47,197 nt of DNA from Gemmatimonadales bacterium. Lineage in GTDB: Bacteria > Gemmatimonadota > Gemmatimonadetes > Palauibacterales > Palauibacteraceae. The DNA lies in contig VXQX01000045.1 in NCBI GenBank assembly GCA_009838765.1, forward strand, positions 1 through 47,197. Direction: 5' to 3'. The translations under genes were made by a program, and so were the position numbers. Below the pieces are notes generated by a model. The model did no database searches, was not told where the DNA came from, and saw only the letters and a list, made by a program, of their open reading frames with translations. Positions 3,213 through 12,477 of this stretch are shown here, in pieces (position 1 is the stretch's first letter; each line of letters begins with the position of its first letter).

Positions 3213-4565
3213 CTAGCGGCTGAAGTAGCTTCGCGTTTCCCGCCATACGACGCCGGAGAGGAGCAGGAGTCCCACCAGGTTCGGCGCCGCCATGAGGCCG
3301 TTGAGGATGTCGGAGATGAGCCACACGATATCCAGTTCCACGACGGCGGCGAGCCCGACCACGATCACGAACACGAGACGATAGGGACGGATCACGCGCT
3401 CGCCGAACAGGTAGGCGAAGCTCCGTTCTCCGTAGTAGGACCACCCGAGCATCGTGCTGAAGGCGAAGGTCGCGAGGCCGAGCGCGACGACGATGTCCCC
3501 GGCGCCCGCGAGCAGGCTCGTGTCGAAGGCGAGTTGCGTCATGTTCGCGCCCTCGGCACCCGACTGCCACGCCCCCGTCGTGAGGATCGCGAGTCCCGTG
3601 AGGGTGCAGACGACGATGGTGTCGATGAACGTCTGTGTCATGGAGACGAGGGCCTGCCGCACCGGCTCGCGCGTCTGCGCCGCGGCGGCGGCGATCGCGC
3701 CCGTGCCCAGCCCGGATTCGTTCGAGAAGATCCCGCGCGCGACGCCGAACCGCATCGCCTGGAGGACGGTGTAGCCGAGGGCCCCGCCGGCCACCGCCTG
3801 CCCCCCGAACGCGTGCTCGAACACGAGTCGGAGGGCCGCGGGGATCTCCGCCGCGTTGGAGATGAGGACGATGGCGGCGACGCCCATGTAGAGGACGATC
3901 ATCGCGGGCACGATGACGCTCGCCACCCGCCCGATGGACCGGATCCCCCCGACGATGACGAGGCCGACGGCCGCCGCCGTGACGGGTCCCATGACCCAGT
4001 GCGGCACGCGGAACGACTCGTTCATCGCGTCCGCCACCGCCTGCGACTGGACGCCGTTGCCGATCCCGAAGGCCGCGAGGGTCGCGAAGAGCGCGAAGGC
4101 GATCGCGAGGCCCCGGCCGAGGGTGCCCCGTCCGAGACCGTGCTCGAGGTAGTACATGGGGCCGCCCGCCTTCTCGCCCCGGGCATCCGTCTCCCGGTAG
4201 CGGACGCCGAGCACCGCCTCCGCATACTTCGTCGCCATGCCGAGGAGTCCCGTCACCCACATCCAGAAGAGTGCGCCCGGGCCGCCCGCACCGATGGCCG
4301 TCGCGACGCCCACGATGTTCCCGGTGCCGACCGTTGCGGCCAGCGCGGTCATGAGCGCCTGGAAGTGCGAGATGTCGCCCTCGCCGCCCGGTTCGCGCCG
4401 CTTGACGAGCGCCAGCCAGAGGGCGTGCCCCAGCCGGCGGAACTGGAGACCGCGAAGCAGGAGCGTGTAGACGAGGCCGGTGGTGAGGAGGAGGAGGATG
4501 AGGGGGATGCCCCACACCCAGGACTGAATCGCCTCCAGCGGTCCGACTGCGGAAATTGCTGTCAC
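3213..4565 (-). CDS. sodium:alanine/glycine symporter (AGCS family)
   Basis: A secondary transporter of about 450 residues that imports alanine or glycine with Na+. It has roughly ten hydrophobic segments and the family signatures: [18 protein letters not shown] in the first third, [12 protein letters not shown], the segment [21 protein letters not shown], and [16 protein letters not shown] near the end. The GTG at 4565 gives a normal family length. The open frame runs on upstream to 4907 but that extension is Arg/Pro-rich and unlike the family. The ribosome site is weak, so the start could shift by a few codons. It faces the 2922 gene tail to tail with 15 bases between the stops. Confidence 0.9.
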
Positions 4566-4708
4566 CTCGTACCGGAGGTCATCGGGGGAGAGCGCGCCGG
4601 ACGGCCGCGCCGGGCGGCCATGGCGAGCGGAGCGTGACGTTAGACGTGCGTCCGAGCCGCCGTCAACGTGACGGCCCCGGCACGGGGCTTCCGGCGGCGG
4701 GTCGCACT

Positions 4709-4736
4709 TTGGACGGACGGACGGCTTGCGTACCTT
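4709..4736 (+). promoter_or_regulatory. possible promoter for the helicase-like gene
   Basis: TTGGAC (4709-4714), a 16-base spacer and TACCTT (4731-4736) lie in the divergent gap 4566-4833. The -35 is good and the -10 poor. The rest of this gap shows nothing recognisable. Confidence 0.27.
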
Positions 4737-4833
4737 CCCTGCCGCTGGGCGAAGGCCCGCGCACGACCCCTTGTCCACTTCGTTTCCCGGGATCCCGCGC
4801 TTGAACCAGGACCAGTCGGAGCCCGCGGCGGGA

Positions 4834-6423
4834 ATGGCCCCACCGCGGCTGGAAGCGCTCGAGGCCCTCTCGGGCGCGATTGAGCGGGGGCGCCACCTCG
4901 CGCTCATCGCCGCCGAGGGAGCGGGCCTCGCCCCGCTCTACGCGGCCGCCGCCTTGCGGGATCTTGCCGCCGGCGAGGCGGGGGGACGCGCCTTCGTGCT
5001 TACCGCCACCGCGGACCGCGCGCGGCGCTGCGCGGCGCGCATGCATGCCGCCGCGCGGGACGCCGGGTACGAGGTCGTCGTCGTGCCGGGCGCCGCGGGC
5101 GGGGCGGTTGGGCGGGCTCCGATCCTCGTGGGGCCTCCGGCCGTCCTGCTGGAGGGGGTGCGAAAGGGCGACATCCCGGCCGCGGCGCTGTGCTCCCTGG
5201 TCCTCGACGACGTGCGTGCGCTCGAGCCGGCGCGGGCGGCCGTCGAGGCCGTCGTGCAGGCCTCTGGCGAGGGGGCTCGGCGGATCGCGACGACTCACGC
5301 CCGGGATGCGGCGTTCGACGAGCTGATCGAGCGCTGGTTGCCGCGCGCGCGCCGGTGGCCGAAGGAACTGTTCGCCGAGGCGCGGGCCGGGGAGTCGGAG
5401 GCGGGCCGGGTGGCGGGCACTGCGGTCGCCGTCGCGAGCCGGGCGACGCGCGAGGGCCGGCTGGCCCGCCTGGCCGAGTTGCTCCGCGACCTCACTGGGG
5501 TCGGCGCGGCGGCCTCCGTCAGCGTCGAGACGGCCCCCGACGCCGTCGCCGACGTGCAAGCCGCGCTCTCGCTCGCCGGGCTGCACGTCGCCCGGGCCGA
5601 GGGAGCCGAAGCGGCCGAAACCGACGGCAGCGCGGGCGAAGCCAACGGCAGCGCGGGCGAAGCCAACGACGGCGGCGCGGCGCTGCGGGTCGGGGCATGG
5701 GGCGAGGTCGACCCGGCCGCCCACGCCGTCGCGTTCGAGCTGCCGCCGGGGCCGGAGCCCCTCGCCCGCGCGGCGGCCGCCGCCGAGCGCTGCTATGCCA
5801 TCGTCGACTCCCTGCACGAACGGCAGTTCGAGCTGACGGCGTTGCGGGCCGGGCTGCGGGCCGCTCCCCTGGCCGAGCCCGCCGACCCCGCGCTCATGGA
5901 CGACGTGGCCGCCTTCCGCGCCCGCGTCGCCGGCGCGCTCGAGCAGCAGGATCTCGCGGCCGGCGCGCTCCTCCTCGCGCCTCTCATCCGGGAGCACGGG
6001 TCCGCGCGCGTGGCGGCCGCCCTCGCCGGACTCCTCCGCGCGGCGGAGCGGCCGGCCCCCGGGGCGCGGGAGGCGGCGCCCGGCGACGCACCGTCCGGCG
6101 ACGCACGGCCCGGCGACGCACGGCCCGGCGACACCGCGGCCGCGCCGCCCGACAGGAGCGCCCGGCGCGCCACTCGCCCCACGTGGACCAAGGTCTTCGT
6201 CGGCGTCGGCAAGCGCGACGGCGCGGGCCCGGGCGACCTCGTCGGCGCGATCACCGGCGAAACCTCCGTTGCGGGCGGACAGATCGGGCGCATCGACATC
6301 CGGCAGAACTTCACCCTCGTCGACATCGATTCGCTGGCCGCCGACGCGGTGGTCCGCGGCCTCGATGGCAGCCGGATCAAGGGGCGCCAGGTCGTCGCGC
6401 GCCTCGACCGCGGGGCGCGATGA
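4834..6423 (+). CDS. degenerate DEAD-box helicase with intact DbpA RNA-binding tail
   Basis: A 529-residue protein from ATG 4834; a TTG at 4801 is an alternative start. The C-terminus (about residues 450-525, [10 protein letters not shown] to [11 protein letters not shown]) is a clear DbpA/CsdA-type RNA-binding domain, the module that in DbpA docks on 23S rRNA. The front half has the rhythm of a DEAD-box RecA domain, but the nucleotide motifs are lost. The Walker A position reads [11 protein letters not shown] with no GKT, the DEAD position reads LVLDDV, and the SAT position reads IATTH. The middle has no clear second RecA domain and contains a 21-bp repeat (x2) and a 15-bp repeat (x4) in Ala/Gly/Asp linkers. 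I infer an RNA- or ribosome-binding protein without ATPase activity. Its stop overlaps the start of the K+ channel gene (ATGA). The tail call is firm; the ancestry of the front is inference. Confidence 0.75.
5626..5667. repeat. 21-bp exact tandem repeat (x2) in coding sequence
   Basis: Two identical 21-base units, beginning GGCAGCGCGGGC, lie in frame in the helicase-like gene and encode a repeated GSAGEAN linker. Confidence 0.8.
6080..6139. repeat. 15-bp tandem repeat (x4) in coding sequence
   Basis: Four 15-base units based on CCGGCGACGCACGGC encode a PGDAR-like linker just before the DbpA-type domain. The two middle units are identical and the outer two differ slightly. Confidence 0.8.
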
Positions 6424-7484
6424 GTCGGATGGGCCTCGTGCGGCGCCTGTTCGACTTCAGCCGGTTCGAAGGCCGCCTCCTCGGCGCCACCGTCTTCACG
6501 GTGAGTCTCACGATCATCGGGACGATCGGCTTCGCCGCCATGCCCGACTACAACCTGTCCGACGCATTCTTCATGACCGTGATCACGGTCTCGGCGGTCG
6601 GGTACGGCGAGATCCGGACGCTCACGGACGGCGGCCGCATCTTCGCGAGTTTCATGATCGCGGGCGGCATCGTCACGCTCGCGATCTGGTTCGCCCTCAT
6701 CACCGCCACCCTCGTCGAGATGGACCTGACCCAGTCACTCAAGAGACGAAGAACGATGAAGAGGATCGACCGCCGCAGGGACCATGTGATCCTGTGCGGT
6801 GCGGGCCGCACCGGCCTGGCCGCGCTCAAGAGGCTCGCCACGCGCGGGACTCCGTACGTCACCATCGAACGCGACCCCGCGCAGATCGAGGAGGCACGCC
6901 GGATCGACCCCGACGCGCTGGTCATCGAGGGGGATGCGACCGATGACGACACGCTCGTTGCGGCCGGGATCGAGCGGGCGCGCGGGCTCATCGCCTCGCT
7001 GAGCGCGGACACCGACAACGCGTTCGTGTGTCTGGCGGCGCGCGAACTGAACCCGGACCTGACGATCGTGGGGCGGGCGCGTTCCGAGGACGCGGTGAGC
7101 AAGCTCAGGAAGGCCGGCGCCGACCGCGTCGTCACCCCGAACTCGACCGGCGGCATCCAGATGGCCTCGCTCGTCCTGCGGCCCGACGTCACGCTCTTCG
7201 TCGACTTCGATACCCCGGGCGACGCCGGCGGCATGGGGCTGCTGCTGGAGCAGGTGTCCGTGCCGGAGTCCTCCGAGGTCGCCGGACTCACCCTGGCCGA
7301 AGCGAAGATCCAGGCCAAGACGGGCCTGCTCGTCGTCGCGATCCAGCGCGGAAGCGAAGGGGGCGGCGACGCCGATGGCTTCGTCTACAACCCGGGACCG
7401 GATGAGAAGCTGCGGGCCGGCGACGATCTCGTGGTGCTCGGACCCCGGTCCAGCTTCGCCGAACTGCGCGATTTCCTGAGCTGA
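6420..7484 (+). CDS. K+ channel with TrkA-N (RCK) regulatory domain
   Basis: A 354-residue two-helix potassium channel fused to a cytoplasmic RCK gate. Transmembrane helices are at about residues 20-40 and 75-98. The pore loop between them carries the selectivity filter AVGYGE (59-64). The RCK Rossmann domain starts DHVILCGAGRTG (121-132), and a TrkA-C-like domain follows (VPESSEVAGLTLAEAK). The ATG at 6420 overlaps the upstream stop by four bases, so translation is probably coupled to the helicase-like gene. The domain order matches MthK/Kch-type channels that open or close on Ca2+, nucleotide or pH signals; the ligand is not readable here. It converges on the SSS symporter with one base between the stops. 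Confidence 0.9.
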   Translation: MSRMGLVRRLFDFSRFEGRLLGATVFTVSLTIIGTIGFAAMPDYNLSDAFFMTVITVSAVGYGEIRTLTDGGRIFASFMIAGGIVTLAIWFALITATLVEMDLTQSLKRRRTMKRIDRRRDHVILCGAGRTGLAALKRLATRGTPYVTIERDPAQIEEARRIDPDALVIEGDATDDDTLVAAGIERARGLIASLSADTDNAFVCLAARELNPDLTIVGRARSEDAVSKLRKAGADRVVTPNSTGGIQMASLVLRPDVTLFVDFDTPGDAGGMGLLLEQVSVPESSEVAGLTLAEAKIQAKTGLLVVAIQRGSEGGGDADGFVYNPGPDEKLRAGDDLVVLGPRSSFAELRDFLS

Positions 7485-8988: not shown

Positions 8989-9657
8989 TTACTCCCCTTT
9001 CGACATGCGGCGCTTCAGCTCCTCGAGCATCGCGTCGGCCCGCGCCTCCCGCAGGTCCCGCTCGGCCACGAAGTCCCGCTCGGGCGCGCCGGCCAGCGGA
9101 TCGAGCGCCTCGTCCACCTGGCGGCGGGCGTCGTCGAGGTCGCTGCTTCCCTCCATCTTCTCGGCCATGCGGTCGAACGCATCCACCGAGTCGAGCCGGT
9201 CGGTCGAGTGCCGGATCGCCTGCGCGCGCCGCTGCTGCACGCTGAGCGAGTCCCGCCGCGCCATGGCGCTCTTCAACTGTTCCACGCCCTGCGCCGCCTC
9301 GGCCTTCTGCTGCTGGAGTTCGGCCTGCGTCCCCTCGGCCTTGAGGACGAGCACCTCGAGCCGCTGGCGGTGCCGCGCCGCGAACCGGTTCGCGACCTCG
9401 ACCGTCTCGGCGTCCCCGATCTCGGCGGCCTTCGCCGCGCGCCGTTCGGCGACCCGGGCCGCCTCCGTCTCCCGGTCGGCCTGGCGCACCTGCGACTCCA
9501 GCAACCCCTCGAGTTCGGAGATCCGCGCCCGCGTATCGACGAGTTCCTGGCGCATGGCGCGGATGACGCGGTCGATGTCGTCCTCGGACGCGCCGGGCTG
9601 CTTCGCCTCCATCCGGTCCAGCGCCTCGTCGACCATCTGCCTCAGTTTTCTGAACAT
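8989..9657 (-). CDS. PspA/IM30-like coiled-coil protein
   Basis: A 222-residue, almost wholly helical, highly charged protein. The start MFRKLRQMVDEALDRMEAK is amphipathic, as in PspA, whose first helix binds stressed membranes. RVIRAMRQELVDTRARISEL and later heptads give a long coiled coil to about residue 160, and the tail ends MLEELKRRMS, again PspA-like. ESCRT-III/PspA proteins form membrane-stabilising rods. The similarity is in layout more than in fixed motifs, so a generic coiled-coil protein remains possible. An in-frame extension to 9756 exists, but ATG 9657 fits the family better. It sits upstream of the SSS symporter and divergent from the copper regulator. Confidence 0.65.
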   Translation of the reverse strand: MFRKLRQMVDEALDRMEAKQPGASEDDIDRVIRAMRQELVDTRARISELEGLLESQVRQADRETEAARVAERRAAKAAEIGDAETVEVANRFAARHRQRLEVLVLKAEGTQAELQQQKAEAAQGVEQLKSAMARRDSLSVQQRRAQAIRHSTDRLDSVDAFDRMAEKMEGSSDLDDARRQVDEALDPLAGAPERDFVAERDLREARADAMLEELKRRMSKGE

Positions 9658-9741
9658 GGCTCTGAGTCTAGCAGCCCCCGGCGAAACGCCGCCACCGTTC
9701 GCATCCGATTTCGCGATGCGGTTCGGCTCGGGTTTCGCGGC

Positions 9742-9770
9742 TTGTCGTGGATACAATACTCCTGTATAGT
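9742..9770 (+). promoter_or_regulatory. sigma-70 promoter for the copper operon
   Basis: TTGTCG (9742-9747), a 17-base spacer and TATAGT (9765-9770, 5/6 match) form the best promoter seen in the window. It sits in an AT-rich island within GC-rich sequence. The predicted start is near 9777, leaving a leader of about 55-85 bases before the regulator gene. Confidence 0.7.
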
Positions 9771-9772
9771 AT
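9756..9772. promoter_or_regulatory. putative CsoR operator
   Basis: The inverted repeat ATACT-N7-AGTAT (9756-9772) lies across the spacer and -10 of the promoter. Its shape resembles the ATAC...GTAT palindromes bound by CsoR-type copper sensors. A bound repressor here would block polymerase directly. Confidence 0.55.
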
Positions 9773-9830
9773 ATCCAATGTCAGGACGACCGCGGACCGA
9801 CTCGACGGATCGAAGTCGGATGGCCGGTCG

Positions 9831-10166
9831 ATGATGGACGCGAGCGCGGAGGGAATGGCGGTGAGCCACGCGGGGCCGCATGCGATGGGGATCGCGGAGG
9901 GGACGAAGCACGACCTCGGCCGTCGGTTGGCCCGTATCCGGGGACAGGTCGGGGGCATCGCCCGCATGGTGGAGGATGAGCGGTACTGCCCGGACATCCT
10001 GCAGCAGTTCGCCGCCGTTCACTCCGCGCTGCGCGCGGCCGAGAAGGAACTCCTGCTGAACCACCTTGAGCGCTGCGCCACCCACGCCATCGAGGAGGGC
10101 GGCGACGACGCGGCGCGGGTGAGAGCGGAGATCGCGGATCTCTTCATGCGCTTCGCCGGCAGGTAA
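9831..10166 (+). CDS. csoR: CsoR-family copper-sensing repressor
   Basis: A member of the all-helical CsoR/RcnR/FrmR (DUF156) repressor family. The signature RRLARIRGQVGGIARMVE opens the core. The Cu(I) ligand set Cys-His-Cys is present: C53 in RYCPDIL, and H78 and C82 in NHLERC (numbered from ATG 9831). This separates it from nickel (RcnR) and formaldehyde (FrmR) members, which differ in these ligands. Cu(I) binding should release DNA and derepress the operon. The start is uncertain: 9831 and 9834 are ATGs without a good ribosome site, while a GTG at 9861 has GGAGGG seven bases upstream. It lies 20-25 bases before the copper ATPase gene, behind a promoter with an overlapping palindrome. Confidence 0.88.
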   Translation: MMDASAEGMAVSHAGPHAMGIAEGTKHDLGRRLARIRGQVGGIARMVEDERYCPDILQQFAAVHSALRAAEKELLLNHLERCATHAIEEGGDDAARVRAEIADLFMRFAGR

Positions 10167-10191
10167 CGCAGATAACACTGGAAGGATGATG

Positions 10192-12477
10192 ATGGACCCT
10201 TCGACCCCCGCCCCGGCCCTCGCCAGGAAGACCTATCGGATCGCCGGCATGCACTGTGCCGGCTGCGTCGGCTCCGTGGAGAGGAGCCTCAATGCGGTCG
10301 ACGGCGTGGAGGCGTCGGTGAGCCTGCCGGCCGAGTCCGCGACGCTGACGCTCACCCGGGATGTGGGTTTCGAGGAACTCGCCGCGGCCGTCGAAGGGGC
10401 CGGCTACGAGATCGAGCCCATCGCGGACGTGGACCGCGGAGAGGCCGAGCGCTCGCGCCTTGCCGAGGCGGAAGCCCGCTCGCGCGAGGCGCGGAAAAAC
10501 ATGTGGACGGCGTGGGCGCTCACGGTCCCGGCCATGGTGTGGATGCTTCCGGAGATGTTCGCCGGCGTGCGCTGGCCATCGCCCCTCGTCTTCGACCTCG
10601 GCGTCACGCTGCTCGGGGCCGCCGTCCTCGCCGGGCCGGGGGGAGCGACGCTGCGCAGCGCGTGGCGTTCGGCGCGCGGCCGCACGCCGAACATGGATGT
10701 CCTCATCGCGCTCGGGGCCGGCGTCTCCGTGCTCACGGGGGCTTGGGCGGTTCTGCACGTCCTCGGGTTTGCGCCGATGATCATGAACTTCGCGCCGGTG
10801 GGCGCGATGATCGCCGCCATCCACCTCACGGGCCGCTACGTGGAGGCGAAGGCGCGCGGACGCTCCTCGTCCGCGATCCAGGCGCTGCTCTCGCTCGAGG
10901 CGCCCACGGCCCGCGTCGAGCGCGAGGGCGCCGAACTCGAGGTCCCGACCCGCGACGTCGCGGTGGGCGACGTGATGATCATCCGCCCGGGCGAGAAGAT
11001 CCCCACGGACGGCGTCGTCCTCGAGGGACGGAGCGCGGTCGACGAGTCGCTCGCGACGGGCGAGTCGATCCCGGTCGAGAAGGAACCGGGGTCCTCCGTC
11101 CTCGGTTCGACCGTCAATCACTCCGGCGCGCTCCGGGTGCGGGCGACGGGCGTGGGCGAGGACACGTTCCTGTCCAACGTCATCCGCCTCGTGGAGGAGG
11201 CGCAGGCGAGCAAGGTCCCGATCCAGGAGTTCGCGGACCGGGTGACCGCCATCTTCGTGCCCGTCATCCTCGTCGTCGCGCTGGCGGCCTTCGCGGGCTG
11301 GTTCGTCGTGCCCGGAGTCTTCACGGAGGCCGCGCGCTGGGCGTCGGGGTTCATCCCGTGGGTGAACCCGGAACTGGGCCGCCTCTCGCTCGCGCTCTAC
11401 GCGGCGGTCGCGGTGCTCGTCATCGCCTGCCCCTGCGCGCTCGGGCTCGCCACCCCCACGGCGCTCATGGTCGGGACCGGCCTCGGAGCCACGCGCGGCG
11501 TCCTCATCCGTGACGGGGCGGCCGTGCAGACGCTGGACCGGGCGGACACGCTCGTCTTCGACAAGACGGGCACCCTCACCCGCGGCGCGCCACGCGTGGT
11601 CGAGGTCTTCGCGACCGACGAAGCCGCCGAGGGGCGCGTACTCGCACTCGCCGCCGCGGTGGAGGACGCCTCGGAGCACCCCCTCGCCCGCGCTGTCGTC
11701 GAGGAGGCGCGCGGGCGCGGCATCCCCTTCTCCCGGGCGGGCGGCGTGGAGGCGCGGGTCGGGATGGGCATCGTCGGCGAGGTCGATGGCCAGCGGGTCG
11801 CCGTGGGGAGCGCGCGGCTGCTGCGCGAGGAGAGCATCCCGGACGAGGACATCGCCGAGGTGGAGCGGCGTTTCCGCGACGCCGCGCGCACGGTCGCCTG
11901 GGTGGCCGCCGGCGGGCGGCTGCTCGGCGCGATCGCGATCGCCGACCCGGTGAAGGACGACGCGCGGGAAACCCTCCTCGAGCTGAGCCGCCGCGGCTTC
12001 CGCACCGTGATGCTCACCGGCGATCATGAAGCCGTGGCGGCCGCCGTCGCCGAGCACCTCGGCATCGACGACTTCCGGGCCGGGCTGCTCCCCGCCGACA
12101 AGGTCGACGCGGTGCGGCAACTCCGCGCCGAGGGCCGCACCGTGGCCTTCGTCGGCGACGGCATCAACGACGCCCCCGCGCTCAAGGCGGCCGATGTCGG
12201 CATCGCCGTGGGGACCGGCACCGACATCGCGATCGAAGCCGCGGACATCACCCTCGTGCAGGGAGATCTGCGCTCCGTGCTTCGCGCGACGAAGCTCGCC
12301 CGCGCCACCTTCCGCAAGATCCGCGAGAACCTCTTCTGGGCCTACGTCTACAACGTCGTCGCGATCCCCGTCGCCTTCCTCGGCCTCCTCCACCCCGTCC
12401 TCGCGGAGGCCGCGATGGCGCTGAGTTCGATCTCCGTCGTCACGAACGCGAACCGCCTCCGCCGCGCCCGCCTGTAG
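10192..12477 (+). CDS. copA: Cu(I)-exporting P1B-type ATPase
   Basis: A 761-residue copper efflux pump of the inner membrane. It has one N-terminal heavy-metal domain with GMHCAGC (C22, C25), the transmembrane metal site CPC (about residues 413-415, ACPCALGLATPTA), the phosphatase loop ATGES, the phosphorylation site DKTGTLT (about 457), the HP motif SEHPLARAV and the hinge GDGINDAP. The last helices carry YNVVAIP and MALSSISVVTNANRLRR, the pattern of Cu+ rather than Zn/Cd pumps. Three ATGs in a row (10186, 10189, 10192) follow GGAAGG at 10180-10185. The third has the best spacing. The regulator just upstream shares its promoter. Confidence 0.95.
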   Translation: MDPSTPAPALARKTYRIAGMHCAGCVGSVERSLNAVDGVEASVSLPAESATLTLTRDVGFEELAAAVEGAGYEIEPIADVDRGEAERSRLAEAEARSREARKNMWTAWALTVPAMVWMLPEMFAGVRWPSPLVFDLGVTLLGAAVLAGPGGATLRSAWRSARGRTPNMDVLIALGAGVSVLTGAWAVLHVLGFAPMIMNFAPVGAMIAAIHLTGRYVEAKARGRSSSAIQALLSLEAPTARVEREGAELEVPTRDVAVGDVMIIRPGEKIPTDGVVLEGRSAVDESLATGESIPVEKEPGSSVLGSTVNHSGALRVRATGVGEDTFLSNVIRLVEEAQASKVPIQEFADRVTAIFVPVILVVALAAFAGWFVVPGVFTEAARWASGFIPWVNPELGRLSLALYAAVAVLVIACPCALGLATPTALMVGTGLGATRGVLIRDGAAVQTLDRADTLVFDKTGTLTRGAPRVVEVFATDEAAEGRVLALAAAVEDASEHPLARAVVEEARGRGIPFSRAGGVEARVGMGIVGEVDGQRVAVGSARLLREESIPDEDIAEVERRFRDAARTVAWVAAGGRLLGAIAIADPVKDDARETLLELSRRGFRTVMLTGDHEAVAAAVAEHLGIDDFRAGLLPADKVDAVRQLRAEGRTVAFVGDGINDAPALKAADVGIAVGTGTDIAIEAADITLVQGDLRSVLRATKLARATFRKIRENLFWAYVYNVVAIPVAFLGLLHPVLAEAAMALSSISVVTNANRLRRARL

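Follow-up and report, generated by a model that had tools for sequence, protein, structure and literature searches.

A probable DEAD-box pseudohelicase with a DbpA-type RNA-binding domain, retained across Gemmatimonadota

What role could a DEAD-box-like protein without ATPase motifs have in a bacterial genome, and is the potassium channel gene that touches its own gene part of the answer? This question is raised by a locus in the window analysed here, that is, the whole stretch of 47,197 nucleotides of contig VXQX01000045.1 from a Gemmatimonadales bacterium (features in Table 1). A preliminary description had read the product as a helicase-like protein that lost its ATPase motifs and its second RecA domain but kept a DbpA-type tail, and had tied it, as a speculation, to potassium flux. 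We consider it likely that the gene encodes a bacterial DEAD-box pseudohelicase, in which a dead two-lobed body and an RNA-anchoring tail are predicted, from sequence comparison and modelling, to work as an ATP-independent adaptor.

Table 1. Features of the locus, in coordinates of the window
Feature	Coordinates	Strand	Basis
Divergent sodium:alanine symporter ORF, conserved upstream neighbour in the window's family (f1)	3213..4907	-	ORF list, neighbourhood comparison
Predicted DEAD-box pseudohelicase gene, 529 aa (ATG start at 4834, stop codon at 6421-6423, 529 codons)	4834..6423	+	open frame; homologues throughout the class
RecA-like domain 1, residues ~7-180, catalytically dead	4852..5373	+	alignment, AlphaFold2, PF00270, profile-profile
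Motif I (Walker A) remnant: AAEGAGLA versus AATGTGKT of intact relatives; Lys and Thr gone	4909..4932	+	alignment
Motif II remnant: DDVR versus DEAD; Asp 125 retained, Glu and second Asp gone	5206..5217	+	alignment
RecA-like domain 2, residues ~195-350, shortened, without motifs IV to VI	5416..5883	+	alignment, AlphaFold2, Foldseek, profile-profile
Motif VI region remnant, HRIGRTGR stretch gone	5728..5805	+	alignment
Helical segment resembling the DeaD dimerization domain PF25399, residues 351-405	5884..6048	+	Pfam sub-threshold, AlphaFold2
Disordered linker rich in Ala, Pro and Gly	6049..6177	+	pLDDT <50 at residues 407-448; dN/dS 0.50
DbpA RNA-binding domain, most constrained part	6184..6411	+	Pfam match residues 454-523, AlphaFold2, dN/dS
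ATGA overlap of pseudohelicase stop and channel start	6420..6423	+	sequence
2-TM potassium channel with RCK (TrkA-N, TrkA-C), 354 aa	6420..7484	+	Pfam

Lost motifs and retained fold

DbpA and YxiN are bacterial DEAD-box helicases specific for hairpin 92 of 23S rRNA, whereas DeaD/CsdA and Hera are dimeric DEAD-box helicases with a DbpA-like domain. Pfam analysis of the window protein recovered the DbpA domain (PF03880; E = 2.5e-21, 75.9 bits against a cut-off of 25.6), and a PDB sequence search returned DbpA, the E. coli protein being the best match for the RNA-binding domain; residues 14-131 faintly matched the first RecA domain of DbpA and DeaD. The helicase core domain PF00270 was found in 20 of the 27 degenerate family members (best E = 1.3e-17) and PF25399 in 13 of the 27 (E of 0.01 or better); in the window protein itself the latter match is weak (residues 358-404, 15 bits) and lies below the cut-off of 23.

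When homologues from 60 related genomes were aligned in the same columns as intact helicases, motifs I, II, III and VI proved to be all gone from the window protein: around motif II it reads LDDVR where intact relatives have LDEAD, and motif III is IATTH rather than LFSAT, with SAT replaced by TTH. Its nearest relatives (80-90% identical, down to 25%) do not carry GKT and DEAD in these columns but lack the same motifs, and a sequencing artefact is ruled out by identical losses in dozens of independent assemblies. Thus, the DbpA-type tail, the helicase-like front and the loss of the ATPase motifs were all correctly recognized in the preliminary description.

The same cannot be said of its claim that a second RecA domain is absent. 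A profile built from degenerate sequences only matched that of intact helicases over its whole length (E = 9e-67, probability 100%, 484 columns). The AlphaFold2 model, for which the degenerate sequences alone served as input (27 rows), has a mean pLDDT of 80; in it, two RecA-like lobes are followed by a segment of three helices, a disordered linker and the RNA-binding domain. Foldseek search with this model resulted in a top match to E. coli DbpA (E = 2.6e-16 over 564 columns) with low whole-chain TM-scores (0.3), which we attribute to how the lobes are placed relative to each other. Collectively, these profile-profile, modelling and fold comparisons indicate that the second RecA domain is present, in shortened and degenerate form.

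The window protein accordingly shares the domain order RecA1-RecA2-DbpA domain with DbpA and YxiN, E. coli DbpA being its best match in fold as well, but unlike them it lacks the Walker A Lys and Thr, the Glu and Asp of DEAD, SAT and HRIGR, and has in addition DeaD-dimerization-like helices and a disordered linker. Such helices, placed between the core and the RNA-binding domain, may correspond to the dimerization domain of DeaD/CsdA and Hera, the match being sub-threshold in the window protein; from these helicases the protein differs in its catalytically dead core. Although it has the two RecA-like domains of active DEAD-box helicases, it fails three of their defining motifs (I, II and VI) and therefore should not be annotated as an ATP-dependent helicase; a helicase fold with the catalytic residues gone is what characterizes a pseudohelicase. 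A cryptic mode of nucleotide binding is possible as far as the sequence goes.

Selection and RNA-contact residues

Within the window's genus, the lowest median dN/dS, 0.046, was obtained for the RNA-binding domain; RecA1 (0.23) and the dimerization segment (0.26) come next, and the values are highest for RecA2 (0.46) and the linker (0.50). These ratios are approximate because they come from Nei-Gojobori counts on DNA of high G+C content. All are below 1, as expected of a pseudohelicase retained under selection; the RNA-binding domain is the part under the strongest selection, and the moderate constraint on RecA2 may mean that part of the body is drifting. It is very improbable that the gene is a decaying relic of a helicase on its way to being lost. 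The complete loss of catalytic motifs, the higher ratios in RecA2 and the linker, and the lack of the degenerate gene in family f4 and in one further genome (G013) would fit such decay, but the frame is open in nearly all genomes, the fold is confidently predicted and the gene is present throughout the class in a vertical pattern. In view of this distribution, and with dN/dS at about 0.05 for the RNA-binding domain and at 0.23-0.46 for the remaining folded parts, we rejected pseudogene decay.

Which RNA the tail would bind is suggested by its relatives. Hera (V461-G462-V464) and YxiN (I436-G437-I439) share a main-chain recognition of guanine (PMC3695512), and the stretch I484-G485-R486-I487 of the window protein aligns with these contacts (I-G-x-I), G485 being invariant across the family. 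A point against the comparison is that K427 of YxiN, which contacts a base (PMC3695512), corresponds to Gly in the window protein, although E. coli DbpA has Gly in this column too. Binding of 23S rRNA by the window protein is inferred from its domain. One might argue instead that the body is dispensable and that the protein amounts to a DbpA-type RNA-binding domain on a dimeric spacer, directed at an mRNA or small RNA rather than rRNA. The concentration of constraint in the RNA-binding domain and the partial retention of the DeaD-type dimerization helices are compatible with this, as is the fact that the like domain of Hera binds general GGGPyr sites and not one rRNA hairpin (PMC3695512), but purifying selection acts on RecA1 and the dimerization segment too, and we regard this explanation as unlikely.

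Distribution, origin and predicted role

The window itself belongs to Gemmatimonadota and may come from a sponge-type MAG lineage close to Candidatus Palauibacterales. A DbpA-domain protein was found in 139 of the 149 sampled genomes of the class. Motifs I, II and VI were read in 179 such proteins after removal of duplicates, about 94 of which are degenerate and 84 intact: 83 retain all three motifs, another is intact but truncated at motif I, 87 have none of the three, seven (families f2 and f8) retain GKT only, and one reads DEAD without the rest. The latter, L025, lacks GKT and HRIGR and lies inside the degenerate clade, and was counted as degenerate; in L073 and L014 motif I is missing only because the available DNA ends there, and L094, a protein of 397 aa with an unalignable front that is among the 87, was excluded from the counts. 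For L094 (G147:C2:1947543-1947758), the core profile matches another frame of the same region (1945972-1947327), which may represent an intact copy that was frameshifted or misassembled.

All degenerate proteins in the survey come from Gemmatimonadota, the named carriers being MAG SB0661_bin_41, Longimicrobiales MAGs, a Gemmatimonas sp. MAG and Candidatus Kutchimonas, and other classes of the phylum gave weak matches only (family f11). The relatives sampled in Actinomycetota, Myxococcota, Planctomycetota and Bacteroidota proved intact without exception, although this comparison covered the best 80 loci of a pattern scan and does not prove that degenerate forms are absent elsewhere. Intact and degenerate copies coexist in genomes of f7 (G133, G104, G139, G070, G116), f8 (G049, G150, G063) and f6 (G077, G122, G126, G132, G144), whereas the degenerate copy is the sole one in the window's genome, where a domain search found no other DbpA domain. 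Profile matches confined to the core (columns ~19-408, E = 1e-38 to 1e-40) were obtained at G048:C1:2157775-2158896, G137:C1:2312909-2314006 and G161:C42:5987-7114, and these could represent either ordinary helicases or additional relatives that consist of the core alone.

In a tree of 130 rows, one branch sets apart all 80 degenerate rows (SH-aLRT 100), and inside this side the grouping largely follows taxonomic family; given that the tree was built by a quick method without bootstrap and that the degenerate rows sit on a long branch (1.09), several losses within one lineage are still conceivable. The proteins L038, L039, L044, L045 and L048 of f2 and L034 and L196 of f8 have a perfect GKT P-loop, with DGAS, DGVS, DGLS or DGAA in place of DEAD and without HRIGR. 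With the Glu of DEAD replaced by Gly, these proteins may mark a stage at which ATP is bound but not split.

The comparisons trace the family to an intact helicase of the DbpA/DeaD type, with RecA1, RecA2, dimerization helices and a DbpA domain. At a single point close to the base of the class, a copy of this helicase gave up ATP binding and hydrolysis, while retaining the two-lobed fold and an RNA-binding domain under very strong selection. The structured RNA on which the C-terminal domain would anchor the protein is most likely 23S rRNA or a precursor of rRNA, by analogy with DbpA and YxiN. The dead body would serve as an ATP-independent adaptor or placeholder, which could mask a site, guard against misfolding or recruit a partner. 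A candidate partner is the intact RhlE-like helicase (GTGKT, DEAD, SAT, HRVGR) that the same genome encodes.

Pseudoenzymes are well studied among kinases, but very few pseudohelicases have been described: the account in PMC9539457 names Utp25 and one PriA. Utp25/Def, a pseudohelicase of the eukaryotic small-subunit processome that acts in 18S rRNA assembly, is the first fully validated one and the second proposed after PriA of Deinococcus radiodurans (PMC9539457). Like the proteins analysed here, Utp25 combines a DEAD-box fold with vestigial motifs and conservation, and it needs no catalysis (PMC9539457); unlike them, it is eukaryotic, lacks a DbpA domain and has its role in 18S rRNA assembly, the bacterial family being of independent origin. 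If the proposed adaptor role is right, the bacterial family would work like Utp25 in a separate lineage. D. radiodurans PriA, as cited in PMC9539457, is a bacterial helicase-fold protein without helicase activity retained as a binding protein. It differs in being a helicase of DNA replication restart and does not belong to the DEAD-box RNA proteins. Our literature searches returned Utp25 alone for DEAD-box pseudohelicases and nothing relevant for DEAD-box helicases in Gemmatimonadota.

A bacterial case would be added beside the eukaryotic one in ribosome assembly, in the form of a phylum-spread clade with a graded series of forms, from those that lack DEAD but still carry GKT to those that have neither, and with active and dead copies side by side in some genomes; this clade and its two-copy genomes make an ATP-free role of a DEAD-box protein directly testable. 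More tentatively, and with somewhat less than even confidence, we suggest that a dead paralogue of DbpA/DeaD, with a single origin in Gemmatimonadota, constitutes the first phylum-wide bacterial DEAD-box pseudohelicase family, an ATP-independent rRNA-binding assembly factor that outlived the active enzyme in whole families, f2 and f8 representing living intermediates that may bind ATP as a static RNA clamp.

The potassium channel and other neighbours

The overlap of the stop codon with the start of a K+ channel/RCK gene, noted in the preliminary description, is genuine: the channel product matches PF07885, PF02254 and PF02080 above the cut-offs and has the selectivity filter AVGYG. Such an arrangement could signify a potassium-linked module, in which the channel is expressed together with the RNA-binding protein and cooperates with it, so that rRNA folding or translation is tied to potassium. 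Beyond the ATGA overlap, which recurs in several members of the window's genus, a channel gene follows in the same orientation in 26 of the 33 f1 loci and in 9 of the 32 loci of f6 and named Gemmatimonadota MAGs, including Longimicrobiales-like ones. However, none adjoins the degenerate gene in the loci of f2, f3, f5, f7, f8 and f10 or follows an intact helicase in the loci with enough flank, four genomes of the window's own family (G004, G006, G012, G034) have the pseudohelicase without a linked channel, and in G037, G040 and G041 of f2 about 45-50 kb of the same contig separate the pseudohelicase from the closest channel homologue. The claim of a conserved linkage therefore holds for most of f1 and part of f6 and fails in six other families; the linkage is real but weak.

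Furthermore, in the f1 genera g3, g5, g6 and g7 a convergent (antisense) HU gene (PF00216) separates the pseudohelicase from the channel, so there is no single simple operon there. Convergent HU is a common downstream neighbour in seven families (f1, f2, f3, f5, f6, f8 and f10), and its presence in the latter six, outside the window's family, marks it as an old neighbour. The window's genus lacks HU; in g1, g2 and g4, where it is missing, the channel directly abuts. The ATGA overlap is seen only where HU is gone, which suggests that the overlap in the window arose through the loss of HU from a region whose gene order is conserved. HU genes 3' of the pseudohelicase occur, for example, at L020:3000-3275, L045:4317-4604 and L046:4495-4776.

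Other neighbours also speak against a potassium module, which we consider improbable and rejected as the main reading: thymidine kinase, CoaE (dephospho-CoA kinase) and GcvH genes lie downstream on the same strand as the degenerate gene in f5 and f7, and the PspA-like and copper-ATPase genes past the channel hold their position in g2 and g4, as expected if gene order is conserved in general. The channel adjacency looks like a local accident of gene order, the pseudohelicase and its neighbour having come to touch after loss of the intervening HU gene, and the proposed adaptor role needs no functional link to the channel. Of the earlier interpretation, a DEAD-box-derived protein that lost its motifs and kept its DbpA domain stands, whereas the single RecA domain does not and the tie to potassium flux is not supported. 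The f5 and f7 downstream genes are found at L186:746-2625, L052:911-2803 and L051:1254-2918.

Upstream, the symporter gene is present in 29 of the 33 f1 loci; the true start of the window's symporter probably lies inside the ORF. Past the channel, the window encodes a PspA-like coiled-coil ORF, a small regulator-like ORF and a heavy-metal P-type ATPase (8989-9756 on the minus strand and 9747-12477 on the plus strand). Relatives of the PspA-like ORF and the ATPase follow the channel in L033, and a relative of the ATPase in L032, indicating that the region is syntenic.
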